Assembly: GCF_031583065.1 (NCBI RefSeq)
Contig: NZ_CP134053.1
Span: forward strand, 4,960,001-5,024,000
DNA length: 64,000 bases
Direction of reading: 5' to 3'
Source: Streptomyces sp. CGMCC 4.7035
GTDB taxonomy: Bacteria > Actinomycetota > Actinomycetes > Streptomycetales > Streptomycetaceae
A program made the position numbers and the translations under genes. Shown here one piece after another: positions 3,140 through 57,469 of this stretch (its first letter is position 1; each line of letters begins with the position of its first letter). The notes below the pieces were generated by a model. The model was given only the letters and a program-made list of their open reading frames with translations, was not told where the DNA came from and did no database searches.

Positions 3140-4192
3140 ATGACCTCGACTCCCACTCTCGACCACGAGCGAGTCGTCGTACGCCGCGGAGAGCGCTCGG
3201 GCCTTCCCGTCATCGTGGCGATCCACTCGACCCAGCTCGGATCCGCAGTCGGCGGCTGCCGTATGTGGACCTACTCCAACTGGCGCGAAGGACTCGCCGA
3301 CGCGCTCCGTCTCTCCGAGGCGATGTCGTTCAAGTGTGCGGTCGCCGGGATCGAGCACGGCGGTGGCAAGTCCGTCATCCCGCTACCCGAAGGGACGGTG
3401 CTCACGCCCGAGCTGCGCACGGCTGTCATGCGCGACCTCGGCGACGTCGTCCATGAGCTCGGAGGTCAGTACGTGGTGGGTGCGGACGTCGGAACGTCCG
3501 CCGCCGATATGCGCACGGTCCGCGAGCGCACCATGTGGGCCGCCGATCACGACAATGTGGCGGGCTCCGAAGCGGAGGCCGAGTCGATGGTCGAACCGAC
3601 ATCGCTCGGTGTCTATGAGTCGATGCGCGCGACCGCCAACCACCTCTTCGGAAGTCCCGAGCTCCGGGGCCTGTCCGCCGCAATCGTCGGCCTCGGCAGC
3701 GTCGGCGGTCCGCTGGCCCGTAGGCTCGCGCAGGACGGCGTGCACCTCGTCGTCACCGACATCGATCCGACCCGACGGGAGCTCGCGGAGGAGATCGGCG
3801 CCGACTGGGGTGGCCCGGACACGCTCTTCTCTCCCGTCGACATCGCAGTCCCCGCAGCCCTCGGTGGCGTGCTCTCCCCGGAGACCGTCCCGAGGCTCAG
3901 GTGCCGAGCCGTGGTCGGTCCGGCCAACAACCAGCTCGTCGACGACGGCGTCGCGGACTTGATCGAGGCGCACGGCGCCGTGTGGGCACCGGACTTCATC
4001 GTCAACGCCGGTGGGGTTGTCTGGGGAGTAGCGACCCAGCTCGACGGACGCTCGGCTGCCGACGCGCTCGGCAAGGTGCGCGAGATCGGAGGGCGGGTCG
4101 CCGACGTCCTCACGCGGGCCAGGGAGACCGGGCAGACACCCCTCGCCGTCGCCAGGGAGCAGGCCCGAGCTCGTCTCGCATCGGCCACCTGA
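3140..4192 (+). CDS. Glu/Leu/Phe/Val-type amino-acid dehydrogenase
   Basis: 350 residues, the usual length for leucine/valine/phenylalanine dehydrogenases, which oxidatively deaminate an amino acid to its 2-oxo acid with NAD+. The catalytic region shows EAMSFKCAVAGIEHGGGKSVI (split: substrate-binding Lys near 64, catalytic Lys near 76 in GGGKSVI) and GADVGTSAADM; the Rossmann domain has VGLGSVGGPLARRL near 182 and NAGGVVWG near 292. ATG start with GGAGGAA upstream. It is followed after 31 bases by the indolepyruvate oxidoreductase, so the pair could take an amino acid to its oxo acid and then to acyl-CoA. Substrate cannot be read from sequence; phenylalanine, tryptophan or a branched-chain amino acid are all possible. 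A shrunken paralogue lies at 8652. Confidence 0.88.
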   Translation: MTSTPTLDHERVVVRRGERSGLPVIVAIHSTQLGSAVGGCRMWTYSNWREGLADALRLSEAMSFKCAVAGIEHGGGKSVIPLPEGTVLTPELRTAVMRDLGDVVHELGGQYVVGADVGTSAADMRTVRERTMWAADHDNVAGSEAEAESMVEPTSLGVYESMRATANHLFGSPELRGLSAAIVGLGSVGGPLARRLAQDGVHLVVTDIDPTRRELAEEIGADWGGPDTLFSPVDIAVPAALGGVLSPETVPRLRCRAVVGPANNQLVDDGVADLIEAHGAVWAPDFIVNAGGVVWGVATQLDGRSAADALGKVREIGGRVADVLTRARETGQTPLAVAREQARARLASAT

Positions 4193-4223
4193 GACCCACG
4201 GACACAGAGAACGGCGAAGGACG

Positions 4224-7200
4224 ATGACCGAATCCCACCAGAACAACCGGAACCTGACCGAGCGCTACACCGCCACCGACGGCGTGGTCCACATGACGGG
4301 CATCCACGCGCTGGCCCGGCTGCCTCTCGACCTCCGTCGGCGAGACCTTCAGGCGGATCACCACTCCGCGGTTTTTATCTCCGGGTACGAGGGCTCACCG
4401 CTCGGCGGGTACGACCTGGAGCTCCTCCGCGTCCGTGACCTGCTCAACGAGCTCGAGGTCGTCTTCCAGCCCGGGCTGAACGAGGAACTCGCGGCCACGG
4501 CGGTCCAGGGTGCCCAGCTCGCGGGCACCATGGCGGACAAGCGCGTCGACGGTGTGACCGGGTTTTGGTACGGCAAGTCGCCCGGCCTGGACCGCGCCTC
4601 GGACGCCCTCCGGCACGCGAACCTCAGCGGGACGCACCCGGCCGGCGGAGCTGTGGCGCTGGTCGGCGACGACCCCACGGCGAAGTCGTCCACGGTCCCG
4701 GGCGCGTCGGAGATGCTCCTTGCCGACCTGGGGCTGCCGACGTTCTACCCGGCGACCCCGCAGGAGGTCCTCGACTACGGCCTCCATGCCGTGGCCATGT
4801 CGCGGCTGTCCGGACTTTGGACCGCGCTCAAGATCGTGACCAGCGTCGCGGACGGATCCGCGACGGTCGACGTCGATCCGGACCGGCTCGACATCACTCT
4901 TCCGGACACGGTCGTGGACGGTACCGCCCATCAGCACGCCGTGACGGCCATGATGTCCGGGCCGGTGCTGGCCACGCTCGAACGGTCTCGTGGGGGTGCC
5001 CGGATCGAGATGGCGCGCCGTTACCTGACCGCCAACCACCTCAACCACGTCTACGGAGCGGACGGCTCGCAGAAACCGGCCCGGATCGGCCTCGTCACGG
5101 CCGGCAAGGTCCACAACGACCTGGTCCAGGCCCTGACCTCACTCGGCCTCGACCGCGAGGCTCTCGCGGATAGCGGGATCCGGGTTCTCAAGCTGGGCGT
5201 GATCTTCCCGCTCGACCCGGACGAGATCCGGAACTTCGCCGACGGCCTGGACGAGATCGTCGTCGTGGAGGAGAAGCGTTCCTTCCTCGAAGGCGCCATC
5301 AAGGACCTCCTCTACGGGACCGTGCGTCCCCCGACGGTCGTCGGCAAGCGCGACGAGGCCGGCGCGCCACTGTTCTCCGAGGTCGGCGAGCTCGACCCCG
5401 ACCAGATCGCCGCAGGACTGCGGAAGCGTCTCGCCCGGCAGCCGGAGCTCGCTGCCCTGGTCCGCGCGAACGCACAGCCGGGCAGTGAGCGCAGGCGCAA
5501 GCTCCTCCCCCTGGCGGTCCGCACGCCGTACTTCTGCTCGGGATGCCCGCACAACACCTCGACCAAGGTCCCCGACGGGTCACTGGTCGGCGGCGGCATC
5601 GGCTGCCACGGCCTGGCCCTGCTCATGGCACCGACCCTGGTCGGCGAGATCACCGGCCTTACGCAGATGGGCGGCGAGGGTGTCCACTGGATCGGGATGG
5701 CGCCGTTCATCGAGCGCGACCACCTGATCCAGAACCTCGGAGACGGCACCTTCCACCACTCCGGAAGCCTGGCCATCCGTGCGGCTGTCGCGGCCGGCTC
5801 CCACCTGACCTACAAGCTGCTCTACAACTCCGCCGTGGCAATGACCGGCGGTCAGCAGGCGGTAGGGCAGATGTCTGTCACCGAGATCGCCACGGCCGCC
5901 GCCGCCGAAGGCGTCTCTCGAACCATCATCACCACGGAGAACCCGAAGTCGTACCGCAAGGTCAAGCTTCCGGCGAACGCCACTGTCTGGCACCGCGACC
6001 GTCTCATCGCCGCTCAGGAGACCCTTGCCACCACCGCTGGCGTGACCCTCCTCATCCACGACCAGGAGTGCGCCACTGAGTTGCGCCGCAAGCGCAAGCG
6101 CGGTCTTGCTGTCGATCCGTCGGCGAGGGTCGTCATCAACGAGCGCATCTGCGAAGGCTGTGGAGACTGCGGCGTCGCGAGCAACTGCCTGTCCGTGCAG
6201 CCGGTCGAGACAAAGTACGGCCGGAAAACACTGATCGACCAGTCGTCCTGCAACAAGGACTACTCCTGCCTCAAGGGAGACTGCCCGTCGTTCATGACCG
6301 TCACCCCGGCGACCGCACCAGGACGGCGCGCGACCGCACGCCGGGTCGTCGATGCCCTGCGGGAGTCCGACCTGCCGGTGCCCGAATTCCGGCACGATAT
6401 CGCCATCACTCCCCACACGACACGCATACTCGGGGTCGGAGGCTCCGGCGTCGTCACCCTGTCCCAGATCCTCAGCGTCGCCGCAACCAACGCGGGACTG
6501 CACGTCGTCTCCCTCGACCAGACCGGCCTTGCCCAGAAGGGTGGCGCCGTCGTCTCCGACATCAAGATCAGCGCTCGCCCCGTCGAGATCGCCAACAAGG
6601 CCGCGGCCGGTGAGGTCGACCTCTACCTCGGTGCCGACCTGTTGGTCGCGGCCGACCCGGCCAACCTCGGGGCGGCGCGCCCCGAGGGCACCGTCGCCGT
6701 GGTCGCCACGGATCTGGTCCCGACCGGCCGGATGGTCTCCGACGTGCACCAGAAGTTCCCGGAGATCGACCTGCTCACCAGCCGTGTCCGGGCAGCGGTC
6801 GCGGCCGAGGACATGCTCGTCTGCGACGCACGGAAGGCATCGGTCGCGCTGTTCGGCACCGACCAGTTCGCCAACCTCGTGCTCGCCGGCGCCGCGTACC
6901 AGAAGGGAGCACTGCCCCTGCCCGCGAGCGCTGTCGAGGGGGCCATCGAGCTCAACGGCACCAAGGTCGAGGAGAACATCCAGGCGTTCCGCCGCGGCCG
7001 CCAGATGGTCGCCGACCCGGCGGCCTTCGCCGAGGCTATCGGCTCTGTCACCACCGAGACTCACCCGACGCTCACCTCACGTGCCCAGCGAGTGGCGGAG
7101 CTCGTCGACACGGATGCCGACTCCACACTGGGCCGGCTCGTCCGGGACCGGGTCCGGGACCTGGTCGACTACCAGGACGACCGCTACGCACGCCGCTATG

Positions 7201-7757
7201 CCGAGTTCGTCGAGTCCGTGCGGCGCCAGGAGGCACAGCGGATTCCCGGCTCGGAGCGGTTCGCCGAGACCGTCGCCCACCACCTGCACAAGCTCATGGC
7301 CTACAAGGACGAGTACGAAGTCGCTCGGCTGGCGCTCGACGCCGAGGTCCGTGCGAGCGTCGAAGACGAGTTCGGCGGGGGAGCCAAAGTCGCCTACCAT
7401 CTCCACCCGCCGGTCCTCAAGAGCCTCGGCATGCGCCGCAAGCTCAGGCTCCGCCACTCGTCCGTACCGGTCTTCCGGGCACTGCGCGGGATGCGACGCC
7501 TACGTGGGACGCCGCTTGACGTCTTCGGCTACGCGCACGTCCGCAAGGTCGAGCGTGAGCTCGTCGAGGAGTACACGCGCGTCATCACGACGCTGGCACC
7601 CGACCTCGACGGCGAGCGGCTCGACCGGGCCGTGGCGATCGCTGCGCTCCCCGACCAGGTCCGCGGCTACGAGCAGATCAAGCTGGCGAACGTCGAGACC
7701 TATCGGAAGGACCTGGCGAGGTCGTTGGAAGACCTCACGACACCCGCGCACGCCTGA
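4224..7757 (+). CDS. Indolepyruvate ferredoxin oxidoreductase, fused alpha-beta type
   Basis: A single 1177-residue polypeptide of the fused indolepyruvate/2-ketoacid ferredoxin oxidoreductase family, converting an aryl- or alkyl-2-oxo acid plus CoA to acyl-CoA, CO2 and reduced ferredoxin with thiamine diphosphate. In order: N-terminal pyrimidine-binding domain (about 20-400, with GYEGSPLGGYD), the diphosphate-binding domain with FCSGCPHNTST near 436, GGGIGCHG and QMGGEGVHWIG, a cysteine cluster region ICEGCGDCG near 641 and SSCNKDYSCLKGDCPSF, then the gamma-like domain GVGGSGVVTLSQIL near 736 and LAQKGGAVVSDIKIS. Long C-terminal region (about 930-1177) typical of the large fused form. Start ATG with AAGGACG upstream. 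It overlaps nothing but sits 31 bases after the dehydrogenase and 8 before the next gene: one operon. Confidence 0.9.
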   Translation: MTESHQNNRNLTERYTATDGVVHMTGIHALARLPLDLRRRDLQADHHSAVFISGYEGSPLGGYDLELLRVRDLLNELEVVFQPGLNEELAATAVQGAQLAGTMADKRVDGVTGFWYGKSPGLDRASDALRHANLSGTHPAGGAVALVGDDPTAKSSTVPGASEMLLADLGLPTFYPATPQEVLDYGLHAVAMSRLSGLWTALKIVTSVADGSATVDVDPDRLDITLPDTVVDGTAHQHAVTAMMSGPVLATLERSRGGARIEMARRYLTANHLNHVYGADGSQKPARIGLVTAGKVHNDLVQALTSLGLDREALADSGIRVLKLGVIFPLDPDEIRNFADGLDEIVVVEEKRSFLEGAIKDLLYGTVRPPTVVGKRDEAGAPLFSEVGELDPDQIAAGLRKRLARQPELAALVRANAQPGSERRRKLLPLAVRTPYFCSGCPHNTSTKVPDGSLVGGGIGCHGLALLMAPTLVGEITGLTQMGGEGVHWIGMAPFIERDHLIQNLGDGTFHHSGSLAIRAAVAAGSHLTYKLLYNSAVAMTGGQQAVGQMSVTEIATAAAAEGVSRTIITTENPKSYRKVKLPANATVWHRDRLIAAQETLATTAGVTLLIHDQECATELRRKRKRGLAVDPSARVVINERICEGCGDCGVASNCLSVQPVETKYGRKTLIDQSSCNKDYSCLKGDCPSFMTVTPATAPGRRATARRVVDALRESDLPVPEFRHDIAITPHTTRILGVGGSGVVTLSQILSVAATNAGLHVVSLDQTGLAQKGGAVVSDIKISARPVEIANKAAAGEVDLYLGADLLVAADPANLGAARPEGTVAVVATDLVPTGRMVSDVHQKFPEIDLLTSRVRAAVAAEDMLVCDARKASVALFGTDQFANLVLAGAAYQKGALPLPASAVEGAIELNGTKVEENIQAFRRGRQMVADPAAFAEAIGSVTTETHPTLTSRAQRVAELVDTDADSTLGRLVRDRVRDLVDYQDDRYARRYAEFVESVRRQEAQRIPGSERFAETVAHHLHKLMAYKDEYEVARLALDAEVRASVEDEFGGGAKVAYHLHPPVLKSLGMRRKLRLRHSSVPVFRALRGMRRLRGTPLDVFGYAHVRKVERELVEEYTRVITTLAPDLDGERLDRAVAIAALPDQVRGYEQIKLANVETYRKDLARSLEDLTTPAHA

Positions 7758-7765
7758 GCGGGGGA

Positions 7766-8655
7766 GTGTCTGATCAGCGGGTGAGCTTCACCCAGACGCT
7801 GCGGCTCTCGGACGGCCGCAGGCTGGCGTGGTACGAGTTCGGCGACCAGGCCGGGACGCCCTGCCTCTACATGCCGGGCACCCCGGAGTTCGGGCTGGCC
7901 GGCGGATGCTACGGCGCCGCGGCGGACAAGGCGGGCGTGCGCTGGATCTCCATCGACATACCCGGATACGGCCACTCCGCCCCGTGCCCCCGGCGAACCC
8001 TCGCCCAGTGGCCGCGGACGTCGACGAGCTCACGGCCCACCTCGGGCTGAAGCACTACGCGGTGGCCGGCGAATCCGGCGGGGGTCCGCACTCCCTCGCG
8101 GTGAGCCACGCCCACCCCGACGAGGTGACCGTGACGCTTCTGCTCGCCGCGATGGGCCCGGGCCACGAGCGCTGGGTGCGCAAGGGGATGCGCGCAACGA
8201 ACATCCTGCTCCACTACCTGGGGGTCTACTGCCCAGCCGCACTGCGCATCCCGCTCGCCGTGATGTTGATCCCGCCGTTCAACCACCGGCTGGAGCGACA
8301 GGTACCGGCGGCCGACCGGGCGGCCGTGGCCGATCCCGACTATCAGCGCCGCCGCCTTGCCGAGCCAGACGCGTTCCGCGGCGGGACCCGCCCCGTCGCC
8401 GAGGAACTCCGGCTGCTCGCCAGACCCTGGGAATTCGACCTGGCCGAGATCCGAGGGACTGTGCACCTCTGGCACGGATCCAAGGACGTCAACGTCCCCA
8501 TCGCAGTGGCCCGCGGCGTGGCGGACGCACTGCCCGACGCCGTCCCTCACTTCTTCCCGGACGCGGCGCACGCTGTCGGGTTCGGGCAGCGGCACGAGGT
8601 CATGAAGATCATCGCCGGGGCAACCCGGCCTGTCAGTCCAAAGGAGGCAAAATGA
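7766..8655 (+). pseudogene. Alpha/beta hydrolase with one frameshift
   Basis: Two frames together make one alpha/beta hydrolase of about 296 residues. The first frame gives RRLAWYEFGDQ, MPGTPEF and IDIPGYGHSAPCPRRTLAQW; the second continues with ADVDELTAHLG, the nucleophile elbow GESGGGPHSLAVSHAHPDEV, the acid region WHGSKDVNVP and histidine region DAAHAVGF. The break is at about 8010-8012, where restoring one G in the TGG-CC junction rejoins the frames. GTG start at 7766 follows a GGGGGA purine stretch nine bases after the preceding stop. Substrate unknown; an acyl or ester hydrolase for the pathway is a guess. Either a real one-base loss or a sequence error. Confidence 0.75.
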
Positions 8656-8849
8656 CAGCGACGGCCCTGCGCGGGCACGAGAAGCTCGTCATACAGGAAG
8701 CGCTTGTCAAGGTCCGGGACATCGGGCCCCGGGTGGCCGGGGTACTGGCGCGATCGGCCGAGGCTGCGACGACACCACTCGCGCTGGCGCTCGCCGAGGC
8801 GCGCTCCGTCCTCGAAGCCGCGGCGCTCAAGGGAGGTCGGACCTCGTGA
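8652..8849 (+). CDS. Internally deleted amino-acid dehydrogenase paralogue
   Basis: This 65-residue product is built from the two ends of a dehydrogenase like the one at 3140. Its first 15 residues (MTATALRGHEKLVIQ) align with MTSTPTLDHERVVVR, and the rest (EALVKVRDIGPRVAGVLARS, then TTPLALALAEA) aligns with ALGKVREIGGRVADVLTRAR ... TPLAVAREQA at the C-terminus of the full enzyme. About 285 residues, including both lysines and the Rossmann fold, are missing. It keeps a strong AAGGAGG ribosome site, an ATGA overlap with the upstream stop and a GTGA overlap with the next gene, so it is probably still translated. It cannot be a dehydrogenase. It may simply be a relic that maintains coupling for the downstream genes. 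Confidence 0.75.
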   Translation: MTATALRGHEKLVIQEALVKVRDIGPRVAGVLARSAEAATTPLALALAEARSVLEAAALKGGRTS

Positions 8850-9097
8850 CGCCGCTTCCCGAGGCGGCGATCACCGTGTCCGCGGTGCGTCCCCTCGACA
8901 CCCTGCTCCGGGTCGCGGAGGAGGCACGGCTCCGCCGCCACGTCCGGGTCCTCACCCTGAGCCTGCAGGCCATGCCGACGACCGGGGGAAGCGAGATCGC
9001 CCTGCACGTGCAGGGGGGCCACCGGGATGTCGAGCTGCTGTGCGCCCGGCTGCGGCGCCTTGTCGACGTCCGCACAGTCATGGCGGTGCCGCGATGA
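8846..9097 (+). CDS. Small stand-alone ACT-domain protein
   Basis: 83 residues forming one ACT-like fold, most like the small regulatory subunit of acetolactate synthase: ITVSAVRPLDTLLRVAEEA, then RLRRHVRVLTLSLQ, a strand GGSEIALHVQG and ending VDVRTVMAVPR. ACT domains bind amino acids and modulate partner enzymes, so a regulatory or sensing role for this amino-acid operon is plausible. The GTG start at 8846 overlaps the previous stop (GTGA) and its own stop overlaps the next start (ATGA). No catalytic partner such as a large acetolactate synthase subunit is present nearby. Assignment rests on pattern and length rather than a search. Confidence 0.55.
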   Translation: MTPLPEAAITVSAVRPLDTLLRVAEEARLRRHVRVLTLSLQAMPTTGGSEIALHVQGGHRDVELLCARLRRLVDVRTVMAVPR

Positions 9098-10767
9098 CTG
9101 GCGGACACGACACGAACCCCGCAGGCATCCGGGCGATCGCCGACGAGTTCCACCACGAATGGCTGACGAGGCATCCCTTCCTGGCGATGGATGATGGGAT
9201 CCCCGGCTACGACCACCTCGTACCGGACCTGTCGGGCGCCGCCGACCGGGACTTCCGGTCCCGGCTCCTCGACCTGGCTGATCGCGCGCGGGCCGCCGCG
9301 GCGCCGCCCGGACCCGACAGTGTGACCCGCCAGGTCGTACTGTCGGCGATCGAGCGGGAACTGGACTTCATCGCCGTCGGCGCCGTGGAGTACACGGTGT
9401 CGGCCGTAGGGGAGCAGGGTCCGTCCGCGTTGCTGACCGCGGGGGCGCGGACCAGGCTGAGCAGCCCCGGCGACGCCCAGGCCTATCTGGCCCGCTGCGC
9501 TGAGTTCCCGCGCTATCTCCGCGAGCACGCCACCCGGCTGCAAGCCGGTGCGGAGCAGGGCCGGACGCCCGTCGCCTCGCTCGTCCGGGTCGCGCTCGAC
9601 CAGGTGGGCCGGTACCTGGCCGACCGGGACGGAGACGTGCTGGCCGACGTCCCGCCCCCCGCGGGCTGGTCCGGGGCGCGCAACTGGTCGGACCGGATCA
9701 GGGCACTGGTGGCCGACGAGGTCCGGCCCGCGCTCGCGCAGTGGCACGACGCGGTCGCCAGGCTGCCCGCCCGGGCCGACACCGAGTGCGGCCTGTACCA
9801 CCTGCCCGGCGGCCTGGACGCCTACGGCCGCCTCGTCAAGGCCCACACCACCGTGGACCGTGCCGTGGCCGATATCCACGACCTCGGCCTGACCGAGGTC
9901 GCTGCGCTGACGGCCCAGATGACGGCCCTGGGTAAGGAGCTGGGTCTGCACGGCTTCCCCGCGGTCGTGCAGGCATTCGCCGCCTCGGCGGCGGGAGTCG
10001 GCGCGGAGGAGGCGATGGCACAAGCCCGAGTGGCGATCCACCGCGCCGAAGCGGCGCTGGCGGACCTGTTCTCCGCACCGCTGCCGCCGCCGTGCGAGGT
10101 TGCGGCGATGCCCGTGCATCTCGGCCAGACCGGCCACGCACCGCACTACACATCGCCTCGCCTCGACGGCAGCGCTAAGGGCGTGTTCTGGTTCAACGCG
10201 CAACATCCCGAGACGGGAAGCGGCTGGGCCCTGGAAGCACTCGCCTTCCATGAGGCGGTGCCCGGCCACCACCTGCAGCTCTCCCGCGCGCAGTTGCTCG
10301 GCGATCTGCCGGATCTGCAACGGTACGGCTCCGTCACCGCGCACTGCGAAGGCTGGGCGCTGTACGCCGAGAAGCTTGCGGAAGAGGCCGGCCTGTACTC
10401 CTCCACCGAAGCCCGGCTCGGCGCGCTGGGCCTGCGACTGTTCCGGGCCGCCAGGCTGGTCGTCGACACCGGCATCCACGCGTTGGGCTGGTCGCGGGCG
10501 CAGGCCACGACCTGGCTGACCCGGACGGTCCCGCTTCCGGCCGCCTTCGCCGAGGCCGAGATCGCGCGATACATCGCCGTTCCGGCGCAGGCCTTGAGCT
10601 ACACGATCGGAATGCACGAACTCCTGCGTCTGCGCGACAAGGCCGACACCGGGTCCGGGCCGGCCCGTTCGCTCCGGGATTTCCACGCCGCCGTGCTCGA
10701 CCACGGCTCGGTCCCCCTGCCGTTGCTGGCCGACATCGTCGAGGAAGGAGGCCATTCGACACGGTAG
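9094..10767 (+). CDS. DUF885-family metallohydrolase
   Basis: 557 residues of the DUF885 family, predicted zinc-dependent hydrolases or peptidases. The signature is HEAVPGHHLQLSRAQ near residue 385, followed by CEGWALYAEKLAEEAG with the conserved Glu, and an ending IGMHELLRLRDKA. No signal peptide: the N-terminus MTGGHDTNPAGIRAIADEF is soluble, so cytosolic. The frame is open further upstream, but ATG at 9094 overlaps the ACT-gene stop as ATGA, matching the coupling seen in the two preceding junctions. Substrate unknown. A second, different DUF885 gene is at 55775. It closes the catabolic operon. Confidence 0.85.
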   Translation: MTGGHDTNPAGIRAIADEFHHEWLTRHPFLAMDDGIPGYDHLVPDLSGAADRDFRSRLLDLADRARAAAAPPGPDSVTRQVVLSAIERELDFIAVGAVEYTVSAVGEQGPSALLTAGARTRLSSPGDAQAYLARCAEFPRYLREHATRLQAGAEQGRTPVASLVRVALDQVGRYLADRDGDVLADVPPPAGWSGARNWSDRIRALVADEVRPALAQWHDAVARLPARADTECGLYHLPGGLDAYGRLVKAHTTVDRAVADIHDLGLTEVAALTAQMTALGKELGLHGFPAVVQAFAASAAGVGAEEAMAQARVAIHRAEAALADLFSAPLPPPCEVAAMPVHLGQTGHAPHYTSPRLDGSAKGVFWFNAQHPETGSGWALEALAFHEAVPGHHLQLSRAQLLGDLPDLQRYGSVTAHCEGWALYAEKLAEEAGLYSSTEARLGALGLRLFRAARLVVDTGIHALGWSRAQATTWLTRTVPLPAAFAEAEIARYIAVPAQALSYTIGMHELLRLRDKADTGSGPARSLRDFHAAVLDHGSVPLPLLADIVEEGGHSTR

Positions 10768-55774: not shown

Positions 55775-57469
55775 ATGTCAGAGACCACCAAGAGCCCACT
55801 GCCCCGGGAGGTCGCCGACGCCTACGTCGACGCCCTCGTCGCCCTCGACCCGGTCACCGGCACGTACCTCGGAGTGAAGGAGAGTTCGAGCAGACTGCCC
55901 GACACCTCACCCGCGGGCCAGGAGGCGCTCGCCGAGCTGGCGCGGGAGACCCTCGCACGGCTCGACGAGGCGGAGCGCCGACCGGGCGCGGACAGTGACA
56001 TCGAGCGCCGGTGCGCGCGCCTGCTGCGCGAGCGGCTCACCGCCGAGCTCGCCGTGCACGAGGCCGACGAGGGCCTCAGGGCGGTGAGCAACCTGCACTC
56101 CGCGGTGCACTCCGTGCGCGAGGTCTTCACCATCACGCCCACCGCGACGGACGAGGACTGGGCGGCGGTCGCCGAGCGGCTGCGCGCCGTGCCGGCCGCG
56201 CTGCGCGGCTACCGTGAGTCCCTCGCCCTCGGCCTGGAGCGCAAGCTGTACGGGGGCCCGCGCCCGACCGCCACCTTCATCGAGCAGCTCACCGAGTGGT
56301 CGGACACGGACGGCCAGGGTCGCGGCTGGTTCGAGGACTTCGCCTCCCAGGGACCCGAATCGCTGCGTACGGAGCTGGCGGAGGCCGCTCGTACGGCGAA
56401 CGCCGCGATCGTCGAGCTGCGGGACTGGGTGCGCGACGTGTACGCGCCGACGATCGAGGGCGCGCCGAACACGGTCGGCCGCGAGCGCTACGCCCGCTTC
56501 GCGCGCTACTTCAACGGTACGGACCTGAACCTCGACGAGGCGTACGCGTACGGCTGGTCGGAGTACCACCGCATCCTCGGCGAGATGAAGAAGGAGGCCG
56601 AGAAGGTCCTGCCCGGCGCCGAGACCCCGTGGGTGGCGCTCGCGCATCTCGACCGGCACGGCAGGCACATCGAAGGCGTCGAAGAGGTCCGCGTGTGGCT
56701 TCAGGGCCTGATGGACCAAGCGATCGAGGCCCTCGACGGCACGCACTTCGAACTCGCCGAGCGGGTCCGGAAGGTGGAGGCGTGCATCGCCCCGCCCGGC
56801 AGCGCCGCGGCCCCCTACTACACGGCCCCGTCCCAGGACTTCTCGCGTCCGGGCCGGACCTGGCTGCCGACCATGGGGCAGACCCGGTTCCCGGTGTACG
56901 ACCTGGTCTCGACCTGGTACCACGAGGGCGTCCCCGGCCACCACCTCCAGCTGGCCCAGTGGGCGCACGTCGCCGACAGCCTCTCCCGCTACCAGGCCAC
57001 GGTGGGCGGTGTCAGCGCCAACGCCGAGGGCTGGGCCCTGTACGCGGAACGCCTCATGGACGAACTGGGCTTCCTCACCGACCCGGAGGAGCGGCTCGGC
57101 TACCTGGACGCGCAGATGATGCGGGCGGTCCGCGTCATCATCGACATCGGCATGCACCTGGAGCTGGAGATCCCGGCGGACTCGCCGTTCCACCCGGGCG
57201 AGCGCTGGACGCCGGAGCTGGCTCAGGAGTTCTTCGGCGCGCACAGCAGCCGTCCGGCGGACTTCGTGGAGAGCGAGCTGGTCCGCTACCTCTCGATGCC
57301 CGGCCAGGCGATCGGCTACAAGCTCGGCGAGCGCGCCTGGCTGCTGGGCCGCGAGAACGCGAAGAAGCGCCACGGCGACGCGTTCGACGCCAAGGCCTGG
57401 CACATGGCGGCCCTCTCGCAGGGCTCGCTGGGCCTGGACGACCTGGTGGACGAACTGTCCCAGCTCTGA
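55775..57469 (+). CDS. DUF885-family metallohydrolase
   Basis: 564 residues of the DUF885 family. Signature STWYHEGVPGHHLQLAQWAH near residue 385 and ANAEGWALYAERLMDELGFL, with ending MPGQAIGYKLGERAWLLGRE. ATG 55775 precedes MSETTKSPLPREVADAYVDA; no signal peptide, cytosolic. This is the usual-looking Streptomyces form; the gene at 9094 differs in its spacer after the HExxxGHH motif and in its N-terminus. In the same direction as the Lrp gene, 55 bases after its stop, possibly co-transcribed. Probable peptidase or amidase, substrate unknown. Confidence 0.88.
   Translation: MSETTKSPLPREVADAYVDALVALDPVTGTYLGVKESSSRLPDTSPAGQEALAELARETLARLDEAERRPGADSDIERRCARLLRERLTAELAVHEADEGLRAVSNLHSAVHSVREVFTITPTATDEDWAAVAERLRAVPAALRGYRESLALGLERKLYGGPRPTATFIEQLTEWSDTDGQGRGWFEDFASQGPESLRTELAEAARTANAAIVELRDWVRDVYAPTIEGAPNTVGRERYARFARYFNGTDLNLDEAYAYGWSEYHRILGEMKKEAEKVLPGAETPWVALAHLDRHGRHIEGVEEVRVWLQGLMDQAIEALDGTHFELAERVRKVEACIAPPGSAAAPYYTAPSQDFSRPGRTWLPTMGQTRFPVYDLVSTWYHEGVPGHHLQLAQWAHVADSLSRYQATVGGVSANAEGWALYAERLMDELGFLTDPEERLGYLDAQMMRAVRVIIDIGMHLELEIPADSPFHPGERWTPELAQEFFGAHSSRPADFVESELVRYLSMPGQAIGYKLGERAWLLGRENAKKRHGDAFDAKAWHMAALSQGSLGLDDLVDELSQL

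Follow-up and report, generated by a model that had tools for sequence, protein, structure and literature searches.

A 65-residue reading frame in a Streptomyces operon as the probable in-frame deletion remnant of a second GLFV dehydrogenase

In-frame deletion remnants, a kind of pseudogene, are known in bacterial operons, in which they persist as short open frames with their start and stop signals kept. Here, we describe a frame of similar appearance in a window of 64,000 nucleotides, which is the whole stretch of DNA that was analysed, from Streptomyces sp. CGMCC 4.7035. The frame (8652-8849, plus strand) encodes 65 residues, which correspond to about 15 N-terminal and about 50 C-terminal residues, some 43 of the latter being matched, of what would have been the second Glu/Leu/Phe/Val (GLFV) dehydrogenase of an operon, and we refer to it as the stub. 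It differs from the remnants mentioned above by its occurrence in two strains, so that it is no one-off. The closest described enzymes are the leucine, phenylalanine and tryptophan dehydrogenases (PDB 8gxd, 7vid, 1leh, 1c1d and 5b37; NCBIfam NF035922), which share a superfamily with the intact dehydrogenase encoded at 3140 in the same window, although the latter reaches 205 of 600 bits against NF035922, far under the cut-off. A search of the literature, at the level of titles and the openings of abstracts, returned apparently no paper on this locus.

The stub is the fourth gene in a plus-strand run that begins with the intact GLFV dehydrogenase (3140-4192; 350 residues; Pfam PF02812 and PF00208) and continues with an indolepyruvate ferredoxin oxidoreductase family protein (4224-7757; 1177 residues; above the cut-off of NCBIfam NF009589) and an alpha/beta hydrolase (7766-8655), the Pfam matches of which are below the curated cut-off. 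The hydrolase is frameshifted near 8010-8020, and its parts lie in different frames in this assembly, the first ending at a stop at 8050 and the second being open to 8655; its homologue in another locus (L081) is one open frame. Downstream of the stub are an ACT-domain protein (8846-9097; 83 residues; PF13710) and a DUF885 protein (9094-10767; 557 residues; PF05960). A second DUF885-like stretch was observed at 56804-57454, with 38% identity to residues 347-548 of the first. The third-position GC content of the dehydrogenase, oxidoreductase, stub, ACT and DUF885 genes was 0.80-0.89, compared with 0.95 for the next gene, an M1 peptidase, and the operon (3140-10767) may therefore have been acquired.

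The coordinates and length of the stub were confirmed to be exact. Its product starts with MTATALRGHEKLVIQ, followed by the 50-residue part. The ribosome-binding site AAGGAGG (8641-8647) is separated by four bases from the ATG at 8652, the start overlaps the stop of the upstream hydrolase frame as ATGA (8652-8655), and the stop overlaps the ACT start as GTGA (8846-8849), so that all three signals that the sequence-only reading had described as kept are present. Because the ribosome-binding site and the start are intact, the stub is probably still translated.

The stub itself matched no Pfam family at E <= 1 and no NCBIfam family at E <= 0.01. Against a profile of 350 columns made from 118 dehydrogenases, with the window's own enzyme and that of Streptomyces sp. 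R39 (see below) left out, stub residues 13-58 corresponded to columns 300-345 with a significant score of 26.5 bits, and the proposal of C-terminal kinship to dehydrogenases thus held against background. In a search of the own genome, residues 15-58 matched the enzyme at 3140 with an E value of 1.4e-6 and 52% identity, and protein identity over the C-terminal part was 52-55%. For the N-terminal end, residues 2-15 were compared with the N-terminus of the enzyme at 3140, both anchored at the start codon, and gave a BLOSUM62 score of 30. None of 1,744 other starts preceded by a motif resembling a ribosome-binding site reached this score, the best having 25; these starts were those of ORFs of >=150 codons from the window and other loci, with the enzyme at 3140, the 1,745th, excluded. 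The looser test with a local N-terminal profile of 10 columns was weaker, since the 6.7 bits of the stub were reached by 10 of the 1,745 starts, among them the enzyme at 3140 and several dehydrogenase-like starts; the stub of strain R39 scored 12.2 bits on it. By HMMER, the first 15 residues alone, a segment too short for this purpose, gave a non-significant -1.6 bits, and MAFFT left the stub N-terminus scattered and unaligned. Hence both ends align with a dehydrogenase, as had been claimed from the sequence alone, the N-terminal one by the start-anchored comparison and more weakly by the other tests, and the C-terminal profile together with the start-anchored match places the stub in the GLFV family by descent. 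The putative deletion junction, located from where each end matches full-length dehydrogenases, falls at 8696-8697, after codon 15 (Q) and before codon 16 (E). Relative to the enzyme at 3140, residues 16-307 are missing, so that the in-frame loss of the core stands and its size, previously put at about 285 residues, becomes about 292. What is missing includes parts needed for the activity of the family. The N-terminal dimerisation domain (PF02812) with its GGGK region, which we take to have a catalytic role in GLFV dehydrogenases, is absent from the stub, with no Pfam match; GGGK is present in the six full-length rows of the alignment and absent in both stubs. The NAD-binding domain (PF00208) is likewise absent, as judged by the lack of a Pfam match and by the region missing in the alignment.

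We compared the C-terminal part of the stub with 149 dehydrogenases, which consisted of 120 proteins and 29 loci; the latter were compared again in six frames, in which none scored above 55. The best matches were P0081 (28/43, 65%) and P0057 (29/49, 59%), full-length GLFV dehydrogenases from metagenomes, with scores of 134 and 125, whereas the enzyme at 3140 ranked eighth with 23/42 (55%) and a score of 99, ranks three to seven being at 100 to 103. By tblastn, P0081 reached 54 bits on the stub, compared with 37 bits for the enzyme at 3140. P0081 is annotated by its source as a leucine dehydrogenase, and P0057 carries no source function. With 354 and 355 residues, the two proteins have the dimerisation and NAD-binding parts, both of which the stub lacks. 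They begin with VSAHTPFGHEKVIL (P0081) and MTVSTAFSHEQVIIQ (P0057), and the offset of the HE pair from their start codons equals that in the stub; HE occupies residues 9-10 in seven of eight aligned sequences, including both stubs and the enzyme at 3140. Judged by its C-terminal part, the stub is closer to P0081 and P0057 than to its neighbour at 3140, which is therefore not its closest relative, and the lost gene was probably a distinct second dehydrogenase. An origin by recent tandem duplication of the enzyme at 3140 was rejected as the simplest reading, as 7 of the 148 other dehydrogenases match the C-terminal part better, two of them clearly and five only slightly.

To determine how widely the stub occurs, 5.8 billion proteins were searched with it. 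As a result, 2 of 36 candidates were found at E <= 1, one being the query itself and the other a 65-residue protein, AB5J52_09090, of Streptomyces sp. R39, which is 89% identical to the stub and has the same length and start. According to protein matches, strain R39 also has an intact dehydrogenase, 95% identical to the enzyme at 3140. Conservation of the short form, raised as a question by the sequence-only reading, is therefore seen in strain R39 at 65 residues and is narrow, with no further strain among the proteins searched.

A full-length second dehydrogenase, for which other strains had likewise been suggested as a source, was at the place of the stub in none of the loci examined, and the ancestral state is accordingly one that we infer. 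A composite query, made of P0081 residues and the last 50 residues of the stub with only the latter scored, found no full-length progenitor at E <= 10 among 1,680 candidates; since this search did not return P0081, matches of about 65% were out of its reach, and it excludes only closer relatives. The following genome samples overlap one another and cover part of the genus, and of 596 stretches from named genomes, the best 80 were examined. The dehydrogenase protein matched 92 of 100 relatives, the own genome included, with a best other identity of 54%, and the oxidoreductase matched 34 of 392 genomes of the genus at E <= 1e-100, again including its own, with a best other identity of 62%. Of 394 genomes of the family, none but the own was matched by the dehydrogenase DNA at E <= 1e-120, and P0081 matched 7 of 394 genomes of the class at E <= 1e-85, the own genome included. 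The DNA at 8600-10767 matched at least 297 of 395 relatives at E <= 0.001, counting its own; the best other among the matches listed was 67%, within DUF885. In two genomes (G474 and G140), short DNA matches covered the stub or its junction with ACT, but around them no stub, ACT or dehydrogenase was detected above chance, the best stub match there having an E value of 0.12. By tblastn in 131 loci, which included 10 from the own genome and many of no more than 3-4 kb, the matches listed (>=28 bits) contained neither stub nor ACT outside the own genome, and among them no locus showed two dehydrogenases with the oxidoreductase. Two loci had one dehydrogenase adjoining the oxidoreductase, with 34-37% identity (L085 and L112), and the pairing therefore recurs. 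These two are a Sciscionella record and an Acidimicrobiaceae record, each with a single GLFV dehydrogenase beside a fused oxidoreductase. The intact dehydrogenase matched 44 plasmid records, all at <60% identity. The operon as such was seen in no other genome or locus examined.

We consider, with a probability of about three in four, that the frame is the remnant of the operon's second GLFV dehydrogenase after a single in-frame deletion and is probably a drifting, decaying gene. This agrees with the earlier proposal of a dehydrogenase of which an in-frame loss left only the two ends, given the matches at both of them and the equal length in the two strains. The operon would once have contained another GLFV dehydrogenase gene, in which one internal deletion would have fused codon 15 to the final 50 codons, either before the split of this strain and Streptomyces sp. 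R39 or before transfer of the operon between them. Thereafter the stub, deprived of the dimerisation and NAD-binding domains, would probably still be translated, with no function of its own, and would probably be drifting. Its frame would stay open because a deletion in frame spares ACT and DUF885 any polar effect and because point changes in GC-rich DNA seldom create stops; in residues 16-58 of the stub, a stop results from only 1.3% of such changes, which makes the open frame weak evidence. The upstream hydrolase, too, is broken in this assembly, which fits this reading.

The substitutions between the two strains were also examined for signs of constraint. Relative to R39, 7 of the 65 stub residues are changed, compared with 19 of 350 in the enzyme at 3140; of these 19 differences, 8 lie within the C-terminal 45 residues (4055-4192). 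Over the shared C-terminal segment, 5 of 43 residues were changed in the stub versus 6 of 43 in the intact enzyme, indicating that the stub does not change faster, and any relaxed constraint therefore rests on few substitutions. Scoring with the family profile was possible for 22 of the 26 differences, among which V28R and L45P of the stub were the two worst. Compared with random single-base missense changes, the five substitutions in the stub fitted the family no better (P = 0.15, in a test that draws single-base changes, whereas V28R needs two), and neither did the two in the rest of the intact enzyme (P = 0.19), whereas the eight in its last 45 residues did (P = 0.016). The random-like pattern of the stub, with small numbers from two sequences only, is only a hint of drift.

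The broader alternative that the deleted dehydrogenase has been kept in the two strains, either as a new 65-residue product or as a translated leader setting the level of ACT and DUF885, appears unlikely. In its leader form, the stub would be kept because it delivers ribosomes to ACT and then to DUF885, its translation mattering and its sequence not. The GTGA overlap at 8846-8849 is consistent with this, and the ribosome-binding site of ACT was partly paired in both predicted folds (8800-8880 and 8825-8862). However, start/stop overlaps such as GTGA are a common layout in bacterial operons, and this one would already have existed in the full-length gene; moreover, ACT has a GGAGG of its own at 8832-8836. 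Furthermore, folding at the stub/ACT junction was like that of shuffles, with z values of -0.12 and -0.30 in the two windows, and the window starting at 8820 ranked 109th in folding energy of 1,070 overlapping windows. The next junction looks different: an RNA hairpin was predicted over the DUF885 start codon (9060-9120, plus strand; -35.3 kcal/mol; z -5.57; reached by 0 of 200 shuffles; 8th lowest of the 1,070 windows), and coupling of DUF885 translation to that of ACT, the second step of the leader reading, is therefore plausible. The DUF885 start overlaps ACT as ATGA and is buried in the hairpin, and by eye no clear ribosome-binding site precedes it. Considering the GGAGG of ACT, the ordinary folding at the stub/ACT junction and the broken frame of the upstream hydrolase in this assembly, the earlier idea that the stub passes ribosomes on to ACT and DUF885 was not supported, and we regard the leader as quite improbable.

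We think it very unlikely that the stub has a function as a small protein, for instance by binding the dehydrogenase at 3140 and changing how it assembles; none of the findings speaks for the dimer interference proposed from the sequence alone. Its identical length in two strains and the presumed operon that it shares with an intact enzyme of the same superfamily would suit such a role, but no more than two strains were found to have it, V28R and L45P fit the family columns poorly, its few changes look random, and it is more like other dehydrogenases than like the neighbouring enzyme that it would bind. As for an assembly collapse between two dehydrogenase copies, which an assembler could in principle produce from one operon, we give it hardly any weight, because the separate R39 assembly (a contig of 10,785,087 bases) has the 65-residue homologue, the first dehydrogenase is intact in both strains, and the stub, at 52-55% over the C-terminal part, is too unlike the enzyme at 3140 for merging.

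The probable remnant of a second GLFV dehydrogenase thus offers a clear case of internal in-frame loss that left the signals of an operon intact, and the stub is most likely a gene relic of an ordinary kind and not a novel functional protein. It also serves as a warning that a short ORF annotated as "hypothetical protein" may be an enzyme stub even if more than one strain has it. If the stub proved to be selected, it would become a case in which the origin of a small protein by deletion can be traced.
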